Source: Xenophilus aerolatus | GTDB lineage: Bacteria; Pseudomonadota; Gammaproteobacteria; Burkholderiales; Burkholderiaceae_C | DNA length: 45,628 nt | Assembly: GCA_030418545.1 (NCBI GenBank) | Contig: QAIB01000019.1 | Coordinates: 1 to 45,628, forward strand | Reading direction: 5' to 3' | Shown: one piece after another, positions 1 to 10,280 of the stretch | Layout: every line of letters starts with the position of its first letter | How positions within the stretch are numbered: position 1 is the stretch's first letter | Translations under genes and position numbers: made by a program | The notes under the pieces: model-generated | Database searches by the model: none | What the model was told of the DNA's origin: nothing | The model's input: the letters and a program-made list of their open reading frames with translations, nothing else

Positions 1-124
1 TTGGATCGAAGGCTGGTACAACCGCCAGCGCTTGCACTCGGCCAACGGCTTCCTGCCCCCAGTGATCTGGGAGAGCACCCGCTTGGCTGCATGACTTGAT
101 GTACGTGGAAACGAGGCAGGGTCA
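1..124 (+). mobile_element. Right end of an IS3-family insertion sequence
   Basis: This is the last 124 bases of an IS copy whose start lies outside the window. It holds the C-terminal codons of the transposase and then a terminal repeat at about 100-124. The reverse complement of that repeat matches the start of the IS at 45502-45526 at 23 of 25 positions, and both outermost ends have the TG...CA form usual for the IS3 family. The two copies point the same way. The IS has landed inside a toxin gene, whose 3' part resumes at about 127. Confidence 0.85.
2..94 (+). CDS. IS3-family transposase, C-terminal end (partial)
   Basis: Thirty codons and a TGA stop are visible. The peptide contains WYNRQRLHSANGFLPP, which matches the conserved C-terminal end of IS3-family OrfB integrase-type transposases (usual form YNxxRxHSALGYxSP). 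That region follows the last glutamate of the DDE catalytic triad. The DDE residues themselves lie upstream of the window and cannot be checked. The stop codon is only a few bases before the terminal inverted repeat, as expected for the last gene of such an element. Confidence 0.85.
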   Translation, partial: WIEGWYNRQRLHSANGFLPPVIWESTRLAA

Positions 125-126
125 GG

Positions 127-279
127 TTCCCGAAGAACGACAAGGCGAACATCACGCAGGACGAGAAGAAGGCGCTGCAATTCGCCGGTAAGGCGTTCTT
201 GCAACTGTCCGGGGAAGCGTTGTCGAAGGCGTTGCAGTCGGGCGTGTTATTGGAGGTGCATTGTGAGCAAGATCATTGA
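127..279 (+). pseudogene. RelE/HigB-like toxin, 3' fragment cut by the IS
   Basis: An open frame resumes directly after the IS and reads about 50 codons to a TGA at 277-279. The peptide has FPKNDKANITQDE, then KALQFAGKAFLQLSGEALSKAL, then LLEV. This is the typical C-terminal part of RelE/HigB-like mRNA interferase toxins that pair with NadS-type antitoxins. The N-terminal half, including the start, is missing because the IS occupies it, so the toxin is inactive unless a promoter and start in the IS rescue it, which is unlikely. The fragment overlaps the antitoxin start by 17 bases, the usual toxin-antitoxin arrangement. Confidence 0.75.
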
Positions 280-565
280 ATCCCTGCGTGACGACCTGGC
301 AGCGCTCCATGAAGTGGGCGCGATCAGCAAGGTAACGATGCGCGAGTTCGACGCGATATGCCCGCCGCCGGTACGGGAGTTCGGCGCCGAGGACATCAGG
401 CGCCTACGGGAGAAACTGAAATTCAGCCAGCCGGTGTTCGCGCATCACCTGCACACCTCGGCATCGACTGTGCGCAAGTGGGAGCAAGGCGAAACCCGGC
501 CTGCTGGTCCGGCGCTCAAGTTGCTCAACGTCATCGCCGACAAGGGTTTGCAGGCCATCATTTGA
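263..565 (+). CDS. NadS/HigA-like antitoxin, XRE-family DNA-binding protein
   Basis: A 100-residue protein starts with GTG at 263 and overlaps the toxin fragment by 17 bases. The N-terminal part (SKIIESLRDDLAALHEVGAI, then TMREFDAICPPPV) is typical of the NadS family. Residues about 44-90 form a Cro/CI-type helix-turn-helix (LREKLKFSQPVFAHHL then TSASTVRKWEQGETRP). Family members bind the toxin and repress their own operon. The partner toxin gene is destroyed by the IS, so this is an orphan antitoxin. It could still act as a repressor at the promoter of the genes that follow, since the next gene starts only about 25 bases later. The IS has removed the native promoter. Confidence 0.85.
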   Translation: MSKIIESLRDDLAALHEVGAISKVTMREFDAICPPPVREFGAEDIRRLREKLKFSQPVFAHHLHTSASTVRKWEQGETRPAGPALKLLNVIADKGLQAII

Positions 566-589
566 TGCTTGGCACAATGGAGACAGGCG

Positions 590-1408
590 GTGGCGACACG
601 GATTGACCCTTTCAGTTCACAGCACCTTGAAGCAGCCTGTCGTGTCCTGGCCGATACCGAGCGCGGCCTGAGCGGCACGCAGATTGAGCGATTGCTGCAA
701 GAAATCGAGATTGCCGACACGTCGCCCGGCACGACCAAGTGGAAGCGATTGTTCAATGCACTGGCCGGGGTACAGAACCAGCATCAGGTCGGCAACCATC
801 TCATCCTGTTCATCAATCGCGCGATGAACCCGGTGAACTACGCCCGTGACCCTGGGACGTTCGCCTGGCGGCGCGACGAACTCAATGTCGTCCTGGCCTT
901 CTCAGGCTTCTACGTGCGCGAGGATGGCAAGGTCGGACATGCCGACAAGGCAACGACACTCGACGCCGCCCGCGCGCGTGCTGGGCGACTCAAGGCAGCG
1001 CTGGAAAGCCGTACCGTGCATGCGGAAGTCCTGAACTACTGCCGCGCCGAGCTGCTGGACGAAAATTATTTCCATGCCGTCTTCGAGGCGACGAAGGGTG
1101 TTGCGGAGCGGATTCGCCTGCTGACGGGCCTGAACGGTGACGGCGCTGATCTGGTGACCAAGGCATTTGCAGGCCAACAGCCCGTCCTGGCCTTGGGGCC
1201 GCTCACCACCGAGTCCGAAAAGAGCGAGCAAAAAGGTTTTGCCAACTTGCTGATTGGCCTATTCGGGGCCGTGCGCAATCCGCTGGCCCACGCACCCAAG
1301 ACGAATTGGCCCATGTCCGAGCAAGATGCACTGGACATCCTGACGCTGGTATCGCTGATTCATCGCAAGCTGGATGGCACCATGAAAGTAGCTTCGGCAT
1401 CGCCATAA
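590..1408 (+). CDS. TIGR02391 (Hypoth_Ymh) family protein with HEPN-like motif
   Basis: This gene encodes about 272 residues. I prefer GTG at 590 because GGAG lies 8 bases upstream; a TTG at 569 would add 7 residues but has no ribosome site. The C-terminal half carries the TIGR02391 hallmarks RIRLLTGLNGDGADLV and, later, GLFGAVRNPLAHAP. RNPLAH fits the R-x4-6-H motif of HEPN-fold RNases seen in many abortive-infection and toxin proteins. No biochemical role is established for the family, but its genes often lie in defence and mobile regions. It heads a tight run with the two genes downstream (13 and 7 base gaps), which suggests one transcript and a shared function. That it is an RNase is inference from the motif. 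Confidence 0.75.
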   Translation: MATRIDPFSSQHLEAACRVLADTERGLSGTQIERLLQEIEIADTSPGTTKWKRLFNALAGVQNQHQVGNHLILFINRAMNPVNYARDPGTFAWRRDELNVVLAFSGFYVREDGKVGHADKATTLDAARARAGRLKAALESRTVHAEVLNYCRAELLDENYFHAVFEATKGVAERIRLLTGLNGDGADLVTKAFAGQQPVLALGPLTTESEKSEQKGFANLLIGLFGAVRNPLAHAPKTNWPMSEQDALDILTLVSLIHRKLDGTMKVASASP

Positions 1409-1421
1409 AGGAAAAGCAAGA

Positions 1422-2705
1422 ATGGACGAGGCGATCGCTGTCTTCTCCCGGAAAGGGATTTTCCAGACCGCGATCGCCGCGCGCGACGTTCGCAGCCGGG
1501 AGCACGCACGCAAGTTGTGGCCCTTGGTGTCCTCTAGTGCATCACGGCAGATGGTGACATGGGTTAGCCCATCCTTTGAAAATGGGAAGCTGCGTCGGCG
1601 ATCCCATTTCCGGATACTTCCTGCCCAGCACACCTATAGCCCCAAAGCGCACTTCGATGATGAAGAAGCTAGTCGGTGGCGCACCGTGCAGGAAAGCGCC
1701 GAACACCGACGAGCAAAGGAACTTGTCGCGGCTGAACTAGCCCGACGCTTGAACGCCGGACTTGCAATGCCCTGGGCGTTCAAGGACGCGGATGCGTCTG
1801 ACTATCCGTTGGAAGGCAACTTGCTGCTTGGCGCCGATCGGGTGGCGATCGAGCACCTGCTGGAGACACCTTTCGGCAGCCAATTCCGACTCGACGTTGC
1901 CGTGCTCGGGCCGCCTGTCCAGACCGAGCCGATGGTGCTGGGGGGCGTTGAAATCGAACTCGGGCACGCCTTCGATGGGCGCAAGGCGCTAATCGGAAAA
2001 TCGCTCGGATTCCCCCTCATCTCCATCGACATCACCGAGATGACGCTGGCAGAACTCACACCGGAATGGGCGCAGAAGGTGCTGACCGCCACCACGCGGA
2101 GTCATGAGCAAGGGCGCCGGCAGACGTACATCTACCTGCATGATCTCCTGTACCCCCTCTACGCGCAGCTACCGGTATTTCTCGACGACGAACAACGCCA
2201 CCAGTTCCTTGTGTTTGCGGACGACAACACCCTAAACAAGCTAGTGCGCTGGATGAACGCGCTGGCCGAAAAGCTGGAGTACCCGAAGGGTACGGTCGCC
2301 GTTGCCCTGGTCAATGGCAAAAACGAACAGTCGCGCAAGATGTTGGAACGCGCTGGACAGGTGGTTGGTCCCGACTGGGCTGAATTCAACGACCAGCGAT
2401 GCCTGCGTCTGACCCTTCCGCGACCCAAAGGTCCGGCTGATCTCCAGGCTCATCGCTTCCACATGACGATGGCGCGCGTTCTGCTGTCGCACACCGATGC
2501 GCTCGTTGGCTACAAGTATTGCAACGGCGTGGACAACAACCACCCCGAAGAAGACGTGTGGGTTGCGCATCGCTGGATCGCCGACCTGAAAACTCATACC
2601 CAGCACCGCGTATTGCCAAAGCGACTGGCCGAACCGATCAACAGGTTGATCGCGGTGGTTTCGGACCTGCATCGCAATCACGTGGCAACCAGCCAAGAGG
2701 CGTGA
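1422..2705 (+). CDS. CoiA-like predicted PD-(D/E)XK nuclease
   Basis: This is a 427-residue protein. Residues 91-200 resemble the nuclease core of CoiA-like competence proteins: an EHRRAKEL segment (94-101), then FRLDVAVL with Asp158, then GGVEIELGH with Glu177 and Glu179, then lysines at 188 and 193 before LGFPLISIDI. The spacing D-(about 18)-ExE-...-K fits a PD-(D/E)XK fold in which the second acidic strand has E-x-E. The remaining 220 residues have no motif I recognise and may bind substrate or a partner. The gene begins 13 bases after the TIGR02391 gene and is followed 7 bases later by a second possible nuclease. The fold assignment is by motif only, and the biological role is unknown. 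Codon use looks like its neighbours. Confidence 0.6.
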   Translation: MDEAIAVFSRKGIFQTAIAARDVRSREHARKLWPLVSSSASRQMVTWVSPSFENGKLRRRSHFRILPAQHTYSPKAHFDDEEASRWRTVQESAEHRRAKELVAAELARRLNAGLAMPWAFKDADASDYPLEGNLLLGADRVAIEHLLETPFGSQFRLDVAVLGPPVQTEPMVLGGVEIELGHAFDGRKALIGKSLGFPLISIDITEMTLAELTPEWAQKVLTATTRSHEQGRRQTYIYLHDLLYPLYAQLPVFLDDEQRHQFLVFADDNTLNKLVRWMNALAEKLEYPKGTVAVALVNGKNEQSRKMLERAGQVVGPDWAEFNDQRCLRLTLPRPKGPADLQAHRFHMTMARVLLSHTDALVGYKYCNGVDNNHPEEDVWVAHRWIADLKTHTQHRVLPKRLAEPINRLIAVVSDLHRNHVATSQEA

Positions 2706-2712
2706 CCGTCCC

Positions 2713-3423
2713 ATGCCGGAAATCATCCTGCGGGCAGACATTCCAGCGGAGCTAAGGGCCAGGCTAGCCGAGTTGGATATTGACGTCCCTCTACGCTCAG
2801 ACGGCCGCCGCAAGCATCATGCAGAGCGCTATTGCATCGCGCACCTGCTTGCGACACTGCCGGTCGAACAGTTCTCGTTCCCGCTGACTCTGACCCATTC
2901 AGACAAGCCGGATTTCCTCATGGCAATGCCTGGCGCTGACGTGGGGATCGAGCACACCGAAGCCGTACCGGAGAACATCGCCCACGCGGATTTTCTTCGC
3001 GAAAAGGAAGGGTTGGGGCCGGATGTCTACTTCACTCCCCATGTTAAATCAGGGGAGCCCAAGAAAACGGCCGACGAACTCCGTCGCGAGATCGAGGCCG
3101 ATGAGTCCGGCTCTGGCTGGTGTGGCGATTCACCAGAGCGTGAATGGGCTGCAGCGATAGCGCACTGTGTCAAGGAGAAGATGCCGAAGGCAACAGCAGA
3201 CGGCTTCGTTCGATATCCAGTCAACTGGCTGATCGTCTATGACAATTGGCCGCTGCCAGCGATCGACTACGCCAAAGCGGCTCCGTACCTTGCGCCGCTT
3301 CTGGCGGACATGGATGCCTTTTCGGTATTCGACACGATCTTTGTCCATGACGATTCGCATATGTGCGAGTTTCGTGATGCTCCAGTCATCCAGATATTGC
3401 GACCGCTACAGGCGCCGCAGTAG
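2713..3423 (+). CDS. Uncharacterised protein, possible PD-(D/E)XK nuclease
   Basis: This is a 236-residue protein without transmembrane or signal segments. The middle has LTHSDKPDFLMAMPG then VGIEHTEA, that is Asp67 followed by Glu80 and Glu83, preceded by a helical ERYCIAHLLATLP segment. This order (helix, D, E-x-x-E) resembles the start of a PD-(D/E)XK core, but I cannot point to a convincing catalytic lysine. A hydrophobic strand NWLIVYDNWPLP follows near 175. It starts 7 bases after the CoiA-like gene. Its last 38 bases overlap the 3' end of the convergent ATPase gene, so the two transcripts would be complementary there. I do not recognise a named family, and the nuclease suggestion is weak. 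Confidence 0.55.
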   Translation: MPEIILRADIPAELRARLAELDIDVPLRSDGRRKHHAERYCIAHLLATLPVEQFSFPLTLTHSDKPDFLMAMPGADVGIEHTEAVPENIAHADFLREKEGLGPDVYFTPHVKSGEPKKTADELRREIEADESGSGWCGDSPEREWAAAIAHCVKEKMPKATADGFVRYPVNWLIVYDNWPLPAIDYAKAAPYLAPLLADMDAFSVFDTIFVHDDSHMCEFRDAPVIQILRPLQAPQ

Positions 3424-6034
3424 CGGTCGGTCCTGCTTTGCGCTTCTTGGCCGTCTCCACGCTGCGTTTGTCGATCTGCGCGCGCCATGTCTCCAGCGCC
3501 GTAATGTCGGCAAGCAGTTCATCCGGATCGGGGACTGCAACGCCGCCCAGAAGTGCCTTGTCGTGTGCGTAGTTCGAGCACTTCGTCATGCCGGCATTGA
3601 CCTGGGCATAGTCCTCATCATCGACCACAACCCCGGCGAGCCGCTGGGTTTCCACACCCTTGCGGAAACGAAGGATGACCTCGCGCAGCAGGACTTCTTC
3701 AACCGCGCGTTCCCATGCCATGCGCAATCGGAAATAGGCGTCGATGGTTTTCCGACGATGCTCCTGATCCTCGCCATCCTTGTGCAACTTGGCGATGGAT
3801 TGCTGTTGAGCCTTTAGTGCGCCGATCCGCTTGCTCGCATTCTTTCCTTCAAACGGCAGCTCTGGATCGGCGACCCCGAATCCCTCGGCGCGGCGAACCA
3901 GGCTTTGGGTAGAAATTGCCACACCGGCCGATTTCGCTTCTTCCACCAGGAGGCACAGAAAGTAGATGTCATGAGTGAACACGACGACCTGGCGGTGCGC
4001 GGCTTCGGTGGCCAGACGCCTTGCCACACGCTCTCGCCTGCGATGATCGAGCGAAGACACGGGATCATCGAACACGATGCCGCCCTTGCCCCCGCTCAAT
4101 CCGACTTCGGCCAAAAAGGAACCGATCGCCACGGCGCGCTGTTCACCTTCGCTCAGGATGTCGCCGGGGCTACGGCTTTGCGGCAGTTCCAATTTCAGCT
4201 TGTGCAAAGCCTTGCCCCTGTCGGCGCGACTCTGAAGCGAAACGCTCAACGTACCGACACTCAACGCCTTGAATTCGCGATTGAGCGCTTCAGCCAGTTC
4301 CTTGGACACAACCTTCTCGGCCATGTCCGATGCTTTCAGCGAGATGGCATTCGTCTTGACGGCGGATAGGCACTGCGCGAGTTTCGCCTGATGGATGAGC
4401 TTGCTAACAGCCGTAACCACGGCGTCCCTGACTTGGCGCAGTCTGACCCGCGCATCGAGTTCCGTGAACTGCTTCTGGAGCGCGGCGCGGGCCTTCTCGT
4501 CCGATGCCTTCTCCAAGGTTTCGGCCTCGGCGTTCAATTTGTCAGCCAGCGCTTGAAGTCGCGCCGCCGGGTTCACCAAGGCTTGAGCAACGCTCTCCCA
4601 TTGGTGTGAGAGCACCGCCGCTTTGATGGCTTCCTGGCGAGTCGTCAGCAGCGTCTCGAACGCCTTGGTGTCGGCGGCCAGTTGCAGATCTAGGGTTTCA
4701 ATCTCGCCGTGGGTCACATCGTCGATATTCAACGCCAGACTCTGCGCGATGAATGGTTTGTATTCTGCGTACAGGGCGGTACGACGTGCCTGTGAGGTTT
4801 TTTCGGCCTCTTGCTGGATGAAGGCCTCGAAACGCAGCAAACGAGCGGCGCCTTCTGCTAAAGGTTGCTGGCATAGCGGGCAAGGCGTATCCGAGCCCAG
4901 GTCGGGGAACGCCTTATCCGGGTGAGATTCGACGGCGAACTTGCGCGAGGCTTCGAACAATTCGCGCCAGACTTCTCCCCCGGTGCCCGGCAGCAGGTTC
5001 TCACTCTCCTTGAACTCCTTGGCTGCAAGCGCGGCTGCCGCCTGTGCGGTGCGATAACTGTCCGCCAAGCTACGGAGCTTGGCGACGACGGATTGGTCTA
5101 CCAGCGCGCCTTTGCCAGTGGCATTTGTCGCTATGGCCGCGACGCGGCGGGCTCGCAAGCGCAATTGAGCTGCCTTCTCCTTCGGGTTGTTCTCCTTCAG
5201 GCTCTTGTCCAGTGCCACATGCTGAGCCAACTCTTCCGGCGTCAGGGTGGCCAGCGCGTCAATCTGAGCTTGGGTTGTCTTCGCGGATAGTGATGCGATC
5301 AGCTTGCCGACCGCTGTGTCGCCTTGCAGCGGCGCAAACGCGGAGAGGTCGGCGGCGGATTGCGCATGTTCTGCATCAATCGTGGTCTTCAACTGTTTGC
5401 AAATTTTCGCCAGTGCCTCGAAGACATCAAGCCCATAAGGCACGTAGGAGAAATCATCCTCGCTGTCCAGGTAAGCCCGCGCGCATCGTGAGTCGAAGAT
5501 TGCGAACGATGACAACTCGGGAGGCGCCGCCTTGCCGTGTGTCCATTGCACATCCTTTGCAACACCGTCAACAGTAATTTCAAAGGCTGCTTCAGGAGCG
5601 CCCGCCTTGCCAGCGGGAAGATGGGCATTCGGATGAATTGCTTCGGTTTGGTCGCGGGCGCGACAGGCGCGCTTGAGTACCCGCGAGTATCCCGACTTAC
5701 CCGAACCGTTGTCGCCGTAGATGACGGTCATTCCGGCGGCACTGAATGACAAGTGCTGATTTTCTGCAATCGCATTGACGTGCCGCATATTCTTCATTGC
5801 GAGCAGTTCTATGTGCGTTGTCACCTTGACCGGCGCCGGAATCTGGTCGGCCGTGAGCGGTTTGGGTTTACGGCCTTTCGGATCGGGGATGCCATGTGCC
5901 AACTTGAGCAACGCGAACAGATCGTCTTGGTCATCCGCCGTCAATGTCTGTTTGGCCAGCAGGCGCGCGACTGCATCGCTTTGCCATGCGGGCAACCCCT
6001 GAGTCCAAACCAGTATTTCTTGCAGTATCGACAT
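3386..6034 (-). CDS. RloC/SMC-like AAA ATPase with zinc hook
   Basis: This 882-residue protein has the head-coil-head layout of SMC/Rad50-like ATPases. Walker A GDNGSGKS is at 107-114, followed by helical arms and a zinc-hook motif CPLC at 385-388. After more coiled coil come the ABC signature LSEGEQ (627-632), Walker B IVFDDP (653-658), D-loop SLDH (661-664) and H-loop FTHD (686-689). About 190 residues follow the ATPase, with Arg776, Glu780 and a late NYAHD (His824). An ATPase head with zinc hook plus such a tail is the plan of RloC, a phage-defence tRNA anticodon nuclease, and PrrC uses an Arg-Glu-His triad. Whether this tail is a nuclease is inference. The gene is convergent with, and overlaps by 38 bases, the preceding three-gene operon. 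It would act in the cytoplasm on nucleic acid or translation. Confidence 0.8.
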   Translation of the reverse strand: MSILQEILVWTQGLPAWQSDAVARLLAKQTLTADDQDDLFALLKLAHGIPDPKGRKPKPLTADQIPAPVKVTTHIELLAMKNMRHVNAIAENQHLSFSAAGMTVIYGDNGSGKSGYSRVLKRACRARDQTEAIHPNAHLPAGKAGAPEAAFEITVDGVAKDVQWTHGKAAPPELSSFAIFDSRCARAYLDSEDDFSYVPYGLDVFEALAKICKQLKTTIDAEHAQSAADLSAFAPLQGDTAVGKLIASLSAKTTQAQIDALATLTPEELAQHVALDKSLKENNPKEKAAQLRLRARRVAAIATNATGKGALVDQSVVAKLRSLADSYRTAQAAAALAAKEFKESENLLPGTGGEVWRELFEASRKFAVESHPDKAFPDLGSDTPCPLCQQPLAEGAARLLRFEAFIQQEAEKTSQARRTALYAEYKPFIAQSLALNIDDVTHGEIETLDLQLAADTKAFETLLTTRQEAIKAAVLSHQWESVAQALVNPAARLQALADKLNAEAETLEKASDEKARAALQKQFTELDARVRLRQVRDAVVTAVSKLIHQAKLAQCLSAVKTNAISLKASDMAEKVVSKELAEALNREFKALSVGTLSVSLQSRADRGKALHKLKLELPQSRSPGDILSEGEQRAVAIGSFLAEVGLSGGKGGIVFDDPVSSLDHRRRERVARRLATEAAHRQVVVFTHDIYFLCLLVEEAKSAGVAISTQSLVRRAEGFGVADPELPFEGKNASKRIGALKAQQQSIAKLHKDGEDQEHRRKTIDAYFRLRMAWERAVEEVLLREVILRFRKGVETQRLAGVVVDDEDYAQVNAGMTKCSNYAHDKALLGGVAVPDPDELLADITALETWRAQIDKRSVETAKKRKAGPTATAAPVAVAISG

Positions 6035-6231: not shown

Positions 6232-6386
6232 GGCGATCTTGCTGTTCCCTTCACCGTATCACGTCGTTCTCGCCGTCAAGGGCTGCACGCGCCATGCGCG
6301 CTGGCGTCCTGGCGGCCGGCTGCGCCCCCTGACTGCTGCGCTGCGCCGTGCTGAACCCGGTTCCGGGCAATTCCGCCCGAGCAACC
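6232..6386 (+). repeat. Leader repeat A, about 150 bp, upstream of the RadC-like gene
   Basis: This non-coding stretch is repeated at 7055-7206. Shared blocks in the same order include TTCTCGCCGTCAAGGGC, CCTGGCGGCCG, CCCCTGACTGCT, GCGCTGCGCCGTG and CGGGCAATT-CGCCCG. Each copy ends 12-20 bases before the start codon of an ICE gene, so it behaves as a mobile 5' leader rather than a coding relic. The final part contains GGGCAATTCCGCCC, which can fold. The 363-base gap 6035-6397 contains this repeat and hairpin copy 1, and I see no gene in it. Confidence 0.65.
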
Positions 6387-6397
6387 GGAGCACGATC

Positions 6398-6907
6398 ATG
6401 TCGCAACTGTCCTTTCCCTCGTTCGATTCCACGCTGATGGTGCGCGATGCCCACGGGCGCTATCTGCCGGCGTCGGCCGACGACATTCTGGAAGCCGCAC
6501 GCCAGGTCATCGACCAGAAGATGCAGCGCGGTGCCGAGTTCACTTCGCCGGCTGCGGTCAAGGAGTATCTGCGCACCAAGCTGGCGGGCTTCGAGCATGA
6601 AGTCTTCGCGGTGCTGTTCATGGACACGCGCCATCGGTTGATCGAGTACCGGGAGATGTTCCGCGGCACGATCGACGGCGCATCGGTGTATCCGCGTGAG
6701 CTGGTCAAGGAAGCCCTGCGGGGCAATGCGGCAGCGGTGATCGTCAGTCACAACCATCCGAGCGGGAACCCGGAGCCGAGCGCGGCCGACCGGGCGCTGA
6801 CCGAACGGCTGAAGCAGGCGCTAGGACTGGTAGACGTGCGCGTACTCGATCACGTCATCGTCGCGGGCAGCAGCACAACATCCTTCGCCGAACGCGGCCT
6901 GATCTGA
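6398..6907 (+). CDS. RadC-like JAMM-domain protein of ICE type
   Basis: This is a 169-residue protein. ATG at 6398 is preceded by GGAG at about 6387, while upstream in-frame starts lie in the repeated leader and are unlikely. Residues about 45-165 form the MPN/JAMM fold of the RadC family, with a zinc-binding set of Glu68, His118 and His120 in SHNHPSGNPEPSAAD, and Asp131. It lacks the helix-hairpin-helix found in longer chromosomal RadC proteins, as is usual for copies on integrative conjugative elements. RadC was named for DNA repair, but that role is not supported for the family; a metalloprotease or DNA-related role on mobile elements is possible. A strong terminator follows immediately. 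Confidence 0.88.
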   Translation: MSQLSFPSFDSTLMVRDAHGRYLPASADDILEAARQVIDQKMQRGAEFTSPAAVKEYLRTKLAGFEHEVFAVLFMDTRHRLIEYREMFRGTIDGASVYPRELVKEALRGNAAAVIVSHNHPSGNPEPSAADRALTERLKQALGLVDVRVLDHVIVAGSSTTSFAERGLI

Positions 6908-8206: not shown

Positions 8207-8533
8207 ATGCAACTCGCATCCCGATTCGCTTCCCGTTCCCCGTCGCTGCGCAGCGATTCCCCGCTGTCCGACGATCAAATCCGCAGGGTCGCGCCGTCCA
8301 TCTTCGCGGACGCTCCGCATGAGAGCCGTTCCGAGCGCTACAGCTATATCCCCACCGCCGCCGTGCTGACCGAACTGCGCAAAGAAGGGTTCCAGCCCTT
8401 CATGGTGGCGCAGACCCGCGTGCGCAACGAAGACCGCCGCGACTTCACCAAGCACATGATCCGGCTGCGCCATGCCAACCAGATCAACGATGCAGAAGCC
8501 AATGAAATCGTCCTGCTGAACTCACACGACGGC
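8207..8533 (+). pseudogene. DUF932 protein, truncated after about 109 codons
   Basis: ATG at 8207 has a strong AGGAGA at 8195-8200. The peptide (MQLASRFASRSP, SDDQIRRVAPSIFADAPHESRS, RYSYIPTAAVLTELR, MVAQTRVRN, ANEIVLLNSHDG) matches the N-terminal third of DUF932 proteins, which on ICEs and plasmids resemble antirestriction or phage/plasmid-related proteins. Family likeness stops at NSHDG, near 8532, exactly where sequence of a secretion transporter gene begins in a different frame. The open frame then runs to 8827 as a shadow inside that gene. The gene is therefore a deletion or recombination remnant and marks the edge of the ICE-derived segment. Confidence 0.8.
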
Positions 8534-8534
8534 G

Positions 8535-10280
8535 GTAAGCGCCGCACTGGCGGTCATACCCTTCACAGTCTGGGCTTAGCAAGCCCCCACGGCCCCGCAA
8601 CCCTTCATCGAACAGCAACGCCAACAAGAGCGCGAACGCGCCCTGCGCGAGCAGAACGAACGCCAGATCGACGAGCGCCTGCCCGCGCCCGCTGCTCGCC
8701 CCGTCTCCCGCATCCCCGATGCAGAGACCCCGTGCTTTCGCATCGACCGCGTGCTGCTCGTCGGCGACGCGTCCGACTCCTTTCAGTGGGCCGTCTCGCC
8801 CTCGGTGCTCGCTGGGTCGTCCGGTGACGACTCCCCCCTGGGCCGCTGCCTCGGCACCTCCGGCGTCAACGTCGTCCTCGCCCGCGCCCAGGCCGAAGTC
8901 ATCGCCCGAGGCTGGACCACCACCCGCGTCCTCGCCGCCCCGCAGGACCTCACCACCGGCACGCTGACCCTCACCCTCGTTCCCGGCCGCATCGCCGCCA
9001 TCCGCCTGTCCGCGGATTCCACGGTGCCCTTGCTGGGGCAGGGCGCCCTGCTCGCCACCGCCATTCCCGCGTCGGTGGGCGACCTGCTGAACCTGCGCGC
9101 CATCGAGCAGGGCCTGGAAAACCTCAAGCGTTCTCCCACCGCCGAGGCCGACATCCAGATCGAGCCGTCCTCCGCCCCTAACGCCCAGCCCGGCGAGAGC
9201 GACCTCGTCGTCAAGTACGTCCAGTCCAAGACGTGGCGGTTGTCCATGAACCTGGACGACAGCGGCACCGAGACCACCGGCCGCTACCAGGGCGGCATCA
9301 CCGCCTCGCTGGACAACCCCCTGGGCCTGAATGACCTGTTCTACGTCAACGCCTGCCACAACATCGGCCGGCGCTTCATTCGCGACGCCGACCGCGGCAC
9401 CGAAGGCCAGACGCTTCACTACTCCGTGCCCTATGGCTGGTGGCTGCTGGGCTTCACCGCCTCCAACAGCCAGTACTTCCAGACCATCGCCGGCCTGAAC
9501 CAGAGCTACATCTACGCCGGCAAGACCAACAACGCCGAGCTCAAGCTCACCCGCATGCTCTGGCGCGACCAGCACCGCAAGACCAGCGCGAGCATCAAAG
9601 CCTGGCGCCGCGAATCGCGCAACTTCGTGGACGACGCCGAAGTGGGCGTGCAGCACCGGGTCACCGGCGGCTGGGAACTGGCCGTCAACCACAAGGAATT
9701 CATCGAGACCCACGCCGGCACCGCGACCCCGGAGGGTACGCTGGCCTACAAGCGTGGCACCGGCGGTTTGGGCGCCAGGCCTGCGCCGGAAGAGGCGTAC
9801 GACGAGGGCACCTCGCGCATGAAGCTCTACACCGCCGAGCTCAGCGCCAACGTGCCCTTCAAGCTCGGCGATGAGAAGTTTCGCTACAGCGGGCTGATCC
9901 GCGCGCAGTGGAACCGCACACCGCTGACGCCGCAGGACCGCTTTGCCATCGGTGGCCGCTACACCGTGCGCGGCTTCGATGGAGAGACGAGCCTGATGGC
10001 CGAGCGCGGCTGGCTGGTCCGCAATGACGTCGGCTGGGCGATTCCCTGGAATGGGGGCCAAAGCGGTGCGGAGCTGTACACCGGCCTGGACTACGGCCAT
10101 GTGGGAGGCCCCAGCACCAAGTACCTGCTGGGCAACCATCTGGCGGGCGCCGTGGTGGGCGTGCGGGGCGCGTGGAAGAACCTGAACTACGACCTCTTCG
10201 TCGGCGCGCCGGTGTGGAAGCCCGAGGGATTCCGCACGGCCCGGGTGACGGCGGGGTTCAACCTCAATGTGAGCTTCTGA
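8535..10280 (+). pseudogene. ShlB/FhaC/HecB-type two-partner secretion transporter, 5' truncated with TAG
   Basis: This frame encodes an outer-membrane TpsB transporter. It has a proline-rich linker QPFIEQQRQQERERALREQ, POTRA-like domains (TPCFRIDRVLL onwards, LTTGTLTLTLVPGRI), the barrel start RLSMNLDDSGTETTGRYQGG, the late motif FAIGGRYTVRGFDGE and a C-terminal Phe. TpsB proteins export a TpsA exoprotein through the outer membrane. Two defects are visible. First, the gene joins the DUF932 fragment at about 8535, so the start codon and the first signal-peptide residues are lost. Second, codon TAG at 8577-8579 lies between the signal-peptide end (ALAVIPFTVWA) and QAPTAP, where CAG would be expected. 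The next start, GTG at 8751, would give a protein without a signal peptide. No TpsA gene is in the window. Confidence 0.85.

Follow-up and report, generated by a model that had tools for sequence, protein, structure and literature searches.

Genes at the locus

We describe here a compact block of genes from Xenophilus aerolatus for which family matches and genomic context support a role in defence, as a sequence-only reading of this DNA had proposed. The block lies near the start of a 45,628-nucleotide stretch (contig QAIB01000019.1 of assembly GCA_030418545.1); this whole stretch, which begins at base 1 of its own contig, is what we call the window. Four genes run on the forward strand. The first encodes a helix-turn-helix (HTH) protein of the antitoxin type (263..565, 100 amino acids; PF13560 at 5.6e-07 and PF01381 at 1.4e-06, both of which exceed the cut-off). 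Gene 2 (590..1408) encodes a Ymh/TIGR02391 HEPN protein of the PD-lambda-3 B family, gene 3 (1422..2705) an unnamed protein of 427 amino acids that is probably a metal-dependent nuclease, and gene 4 (2713..3423) an unnamed, optional protein of 236 amino acids. The gaps are short, 13 bases between genes 2 and 3 and 7 bases between genes 3 and 4. On the reverse strand, a gene for an RloC-type ATP-binding cassette (ABC) ATPase (3386..6034) overlaps gene 4 tail to tail by 38 bases.

The sequence-only reading had the same reading frames and gaps for genes 2 to 4 and the ATPase, and these are borne out here. For gene 2 a TTG start at 569 is possible, and the start is probably the GTG at 590, giving 272 amino acids as in most relatives' calls. 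In Xenophilus sp. E41 (locus L013) the block is 99–100% identical to that of the window. Compared with a further relative (L016), the ratio of nonsynonymous to synonymous substitution rates (dN/dS) is 0.068 for the HTH gene, 0.079 for Ymh, 0.075 for gene 3, 0.091 for gene 4 and 0.058 for the ATPase gene; these low values identify all five as selected protein genes.

The HEPN protein and its two unnamed neighbours

Gene 2 is matched by PF09509 in Pfam (1.6e-45), by TIGR02391 in NCBIfam (1.1e-36) and, in PADLOC, by PD-Lambda-3_B (PDLC03987; 583.7 bits, 1e-176) and Aga_HEPN (3e-13). Its Rx4H site, RNPLAH, is invariant in all 39 Ymh proteins of our locus set. Gene 2 thus carries both marks of a Ymh HEPN protein, the PF09509 match and an Rx4-6H motif, and its earlier assignment to HEPN was correct. 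In the 2013 HEPN survey, the entry for Ymh (PF09509) gives a conserved Rx4-6H and the remark 'in operon with R-M' (restriction–modification) (PMC3710099). PD-lambda-3 itself comes from the work of Vassallo et al. in 2022, where it is a phage-selected system (PMC9519451), and a 2026 Nature paper terms it an abortive infection system (PMC13190303).

PADLOC's other component, PD-Lambda-3_A, is a protein of 159 amino acids that lies upstream of Ymh in an Escherichia coli locus (L010). None of the six scanned window proteins matches its profile (PDLC03986), and the gene upstream of Ymh is the HTH gene instead. A search of the rest of the genome gave no match either, but a control was silent as well, so that absence holds for the scanned window proteins and is not proven genome-wide. 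At four other loci (L019, L021, L035 and L060), an A-type gene directly precedes Ymh and gene 3, with PADLOC confirming PD-Lambda-3_A for three of the four (326–332 bits); gene 3 thus does accompany the known pair at other loci. At three of these four loci gene 4 comes next, and the contig of L060 stops within gene 3.

Ymh also keeps other company. At L010 (7482-10240), 20 bases after PD-lambda-3 A/B, there is a gene with a restriction endonuclease annotation, unrelated to gene 3, which makes this another case of Ymh ahead of a nuclease-type gene. On Klebsiella plasmids (L005, 5983-11158) Ymh immediately precedes Hachiman genes, and in E. coli (L009, 7482-14145) it adjoins a Qat system. Among phages, Ymh relatives of about 35% identity cover more than 80% of the query in seven records, of nine records in all; the relatives in records H102–H108 (Streptococcus, Lactococcus) are full length, at 33–37% identity.

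Gene 3 is the main novelty of the block: it has no family match at E ≤ 1 in Pfam, NCBIfam or PADLOC, and a single chance-level match in PHROGs, and it recurs behind toxin–antitoxin or abortive genes, within a cargo region open to known defence systems as well. A protein search at E ≤ 0.001 returned 351 matches, 120 of them listed, and a genome scan returned 54 loci at 67–100% identity across many proteobacterial families. In an alignment of 21 rows, D158, E177, E179 and K188 are invariant and E91, H95, K99 and R187 are at least 90% conserved, a pattern (H/K-D-ExE-K) by which gene 3 is probably a metal-dependent nuclease. Its predicted model has a mean confidence (pLDDT) of 53, falling below 50 over residues 113–205, the region of the conserved pattern. 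Among plasmids, gene 3 occurs in 17 records, four of them from Pseudomonas aeruginosa at 44% identity; of these four, L067 was viewed, and there gene 3 has no adjacent Ymh or gene 4. An IMG/VR contig (L085) carries a relative of 50% identity flanked by a resolvase-like gene and phage-like genes.

For gene 4 the model is of higher confidence (pLDDT 91.5) and has a restriction-nuclease-like topology. Residues D67, E80, E83 and K156 are invariant, the first three of them in 40 rows. The sequence-only reading had called this protein nuclease-like from D67, E80 and E83. Structural matches of the model are not significant, and a PD-(D/E)XK core (alpha-beta-beta-beta-alpha-beta with an acidic pair) is a tentative assignment for gene 4. 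A distant relative on a Shewanella plasmid (L070, 2661-5606) is found two genes past a DUF6035 protein, with an Abi-family gene in the vicinity.

The convergent ATPase

In PADLOC the ATPase matches the candidate system PDC-S06 (732 bits). Its motifs follow in order: Walker A (G107-K113), the CxxC of the zinc hook (C385/C388), the ABC signature (S628-E631) and Walker B (F655-P658). The Walker A, CxxC and ABC motifs are invariant in 19 rows, as is the C-terminal R771-X3-E775-(X48)-H824, whose final spacing (48 residues in the window) has small gaps. These rows comprise the window plus 18 loci from 16 of 399 sampled genomes; the window's own copy is also among the 18 (as L106), and two rows (L116 and L118) are from islands with identical ATPases. 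The RloC-like layout that the sequence-only reading saw in this protein agrees with these motifs: the CxxC and the R-X3-E-X48-H are published marks of RloC, and we take the protein, from these motifs, to be a putative RloC-type anticodon nuclease.

Elsewhere in the same genome (contig C22; L012, 5602-10492), a second Ymh lies behind an integrase, flanked on one side by a gene that weakly matches an Mrr-type family and on the other by another PDC-S06/RloC-like ATPase. The same island recurs in another genome (G364; L122, 5325-10185) with proteins that are 100% identical.

Gene association and modularity

How firmly do these genes belong together? Of the 54 gene-3 loci, 30 have Ymh immediately upstream, a figure for loci that were selected by gene 3 and that include near copies; 29 have the HTH gene no more than 1.3 kb upstream, 13 have gene 4 as the next gene downstream, and in 8 the ATPase lies within 1.5 kb downstream of gene 3 or gene 4. 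Seven loci with short flanks or a partial gene 3 were kept in these counts. Gene 3 is identical in L016, L017 and L056, and also in L022 to L027; thus the counts overstate the number of independent cases. The spacing is 11–13 bases between Ymh and gene 3 and 7 bases between genes 3 and 4 in most loci, divergent copies included.

The full block is not confined to the window: Ymh, gene 4 and the ATPase all accompany gene 3 in five loci (L013, L014, L016, L017 and L056). Three of the five are those with identical gene 3, and L013 is from the window's species or nearly so. Upstream of gene 3, other neighbours take the place of Ymh, namely RelE/HTH (L041, L043, L045 and L046), Gp49/HTH (L034 and L040), AbiEi/AbiEii (L047 and L053) or an HTH protein (L048 and L054); at further loci gene 3 has no such neighbour. 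In L039, L041 and L042, what appears by eye to be a 3' remnant of Ymh is left right upstream of gene 3. On a tree of gene 3 (53 of 58 rows, five fragments below 380 amino acids being excluded), the upstream label requires 16 changes against a shuffled mean of 23.9, with many inner branches weakly supported; the upstream partners are clustered on the tree, yet have been swapped repeatedly.

In the sample of 399 genomes, gene 3 is present in 6, gene 4 in 4 and a strong Ymh match (>200 bits) in 6; the window's own genome (G000) and G030 have both gene 3 and strong Ymh. The ATPase is found in 16 genomes and any Ymh match in 15, both being present in G000 and G364. In other words, the link in gene order is clear, but it is not obligate.

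The cargo region

In relatives, a frequent order is integrase, RelE, HTH, then optionally Ymh, gene 3 and gene 4 or other cargo, and finally RadC, with DUF932 and ParB_N genes farther along. RadC lies within 8 kb of gene 3 in 17 of the 54 loci. This layout recalls the integrative and conjugative elements (ICEs) of the Tn4371 type, in which, according to Ryan et al. (2009), int is followed by nonconserved open reading frames that include nucleases, RadC-like and ubiquitin-activating proteins and others (PMC2789088). Shewanella sp. ANA-3, the host of gene-3 locus L036, is among the hosts of Tn4371-like ICEs that they list (PMC2789088).

In the window, RadC (6239..6907, forward; PF04002, 1.4e-45) is the right-hand marker of this cargo region. 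Past it, the DUF932 gene of the ICE scaffold (8207..8827, forward) is truncated: it matches positions 1–74 of the 227 in PF06067 and is cut just ahead of an unlike reading frame at 8751-10280. Ten later reading frames were scanned, of which eight match metabolic, transport or receptor families, one has a match below the cut-off and one has none. Because DUF932 is cut and the later frames are mostly of these families, the ICE in the window looks like a remnant; the earlier placement of the block in ICE accessory DNA was right as to context. At the very start of the contig, 1..95 on the forward strand is the 3' end of an insertion sequence transposase frame, assigned from sequence and presumably IS3-like.

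The toxin–antitoxin pair that the sequence-only reading placed next to the block is likewise half there. The HTH gene is intact, but the toxin is reduced to its last 50 residues (127..276, forward), which are 100% identical to residues 82–131 of a 131-amino-acid RelE relative in L014, itself a match to PF06296 (1.4e-44). A search of the window's own genome for RelE returned this remnant as its sole match. A type II system would have an intact toxin beside its antitoxin; here RelE is broken, and the HTH protein is therefore an orphan.

Other cargo of the relatives includes defence genes. Of ten cargo proteins scanned, four have strong PADLOC matches, to GajA of Gabija (L034), SIR2 (L047), PDC-M68B (L019) and PDC-S21 (L031), and the other six have no match at E ≤ 1e-10 or only matches below 70 bits. 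Genes of L054 cluster with the annotated Hachiman genes of L005. A recurrent block beside gene 3, seen at L004 (7445-12677) and ten other loci (11 in all), comprises a WYL protein, an LmuA-like protein (45.7 bits) and a ThiF/JAB protein (E1-E2 models, ≤65 bits).

A proposal of two defence units

We favour, with moderate confidence, an account in which the int–RadC cargo region of a Tn4371-type ICE remnant holds two separate defence units, the first a modular Ymh–gene 3 cassette of abortive and nuclease character. Families, conservation, gene order and context are its basis, and we infer the silencing, the trigger, the substrates and the cutting of DNA. Unit 1 would be an operon of HTH, Ymh and genes 3 and 4. 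Within it, gene 3 most likely encodes a metal-dependent nuclease that would cut incoming DNA as the first defence, and gene 4 would be an optional addition. Ymh, a HEPN ribonuclease by its match to PD-lambda-3 B, would be the fall-back: presumably silent until infection, and once active, stopping the infected cell by cutting RNA. For HEPN genes associated with restriction systems, a first-line and fall-back arrangement of this kind has been suggested in the literature before. Unit 2 would be the RloC-type anticodon nuclease, disabling translation after DNA damage or phage attack. Two observations weigh against treating the ATPase as separate: Ymh and an ATPase of this type are direct neighbours, co-directional in the island that G000 (C22) has in common with G364 (L012/L122) and convergent in L051/L052.

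Could Ymh, gene 3 and gene 4 instead be independent single-gene defence cassettes that share only a hot spot and a promoter? Ymh does stand without gene 3 beside Hachiman, Qat or other genes, and gene 3 without an intact Ymh in 24 of the 54 loci, some of them contig ends or loci with Ymh fragments. The distant gene 3 copies of L067 and L085 lack Ymh, gene 4 and the HTH–RelE pair, distant copies of gene 4 occur without gene 3, and, the window's own genome aside, G030 is the only one of 398 genomes with gene 3 and strong Ymh. Nevertheless, the tight spacing (11–13 and 7 bases) is kept in most loci, divergent copies included, and in sister rows of the tree (L035 and L031) PD-lambda-3 A has been swapped for RelE/HTH with Ymh and gene 3 retained. 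We regard full independence as unlikely.

Alternatively, the operon might be an addiction unit for maintenance of the ICE, in which RelE/HTH and additional toxins punish loss of the element rather than defend against phages. In relatives the operon does open with a RelE/HTH pair beside the integrase. However, RelE is broken in the window and the upstream pairs are swapped among relatives; furthermore, relatives of Ymh and gene 3 are found outside such ICEs too, and PD-lambda-3, by the account of its source paper, was selected with phages (PMC9519451). An addiction unit thus seems quite improbable.

A single obligate four-gene system in which the HEPN and nuclease proteins rely on the ATPase as their sensor, as the sequence-only reading had it, is very improbable: the block does recur with an identical 38-base overlap in L013, L014, L016, L017 and L056, and Ymh also neighbours this ATPase type in the islands named above, but the complete set is present in just 5 of 54 gene-3 loci, the ATPase occurs without gene 4 in L028, L029 and L057, and Ymh was not found in 14 of the 16 ATPase genomes of the 399-genome sample.

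A bolder and rather doubtful proposal is that gene 3 founds an unnamed family of defence nucleases, a plug-in effector that docks behind RelE/HTH, Gp49/HTH, AbiEi/AbiEii, PD-lambda-3 A/B or Ymh and makes them antiphage systems with two lines; gene 4 would be a further plug-in. If gene 3 is indeed a partner of these modules, that would help to explain how simple toxin modules come to respond to phages.

Comparison with known systems

The HEPN Ymh, RloC-type ATPases and the cargo region are already known; genes 3 and, to a lesser degree, 4 are new as recurrent unnamed partners. The sequence-only reading, which did not recognize the set as a named one, was accordingly half right: gene 2 fits PD-lambda-3 B and the ATPase carries the marks of RloC, with genes 3 and 4 remaining unnamed.

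Gene 3 had been called CoiA-like, and its pattern does share with CoiA (PF06054) a residue order of ES..H...K, D, ExE or ExQ, then K or R. Kinship is not established by Pfam or hhalign, however: none of the 21 gene 3 members matches the PF06054 profile at E ≤ 1, hhalign aligns 22 columns at a probability of 7.7%, and no Cys-rich part was seen in gene 3. The surroundings resemble a Tn4371-type ICE in that integrase, RadC, DUF932 and ParB_N genes surround the module in relatives; the window differs in starting past the expected integrase site and in having its scaffold cut at DUF932, so that RadC and the cut DUF932 are what is seen.

RloC has been described as combining ABC motifs, a zinc-hook insert and Arg-X3-Glu-X36-52-His (PMC2610378), and the ATPase shares the ABC motifs, a CxxC between Walker A and signature, and R-X3-E-X48-H. 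The likeness is to this published motif description and not to an RloC sequence, and PADLOC files the protein as candidate PDC-S06; its plasmid relatives carry the annotation AAA family ATPase or hypothetical in the 40 records listed out of 266.

Gene 2 agrees with the Ymh HEPN family in both family match and RNPLAH, with no sequence-level difference from the family as entered in the survey (PMC3710099). That same family is the B protein of PD-lambda-3. The window departs from PD-lambda-3 in that a RelE remnant and HTH gene occupy the place of the A part, and in its genes 3 and 4, which are absent from PADLOC's part list. Were gene 3 indeed a partner, PD-lambda-3 would grow from a two-gene system into a modular one.
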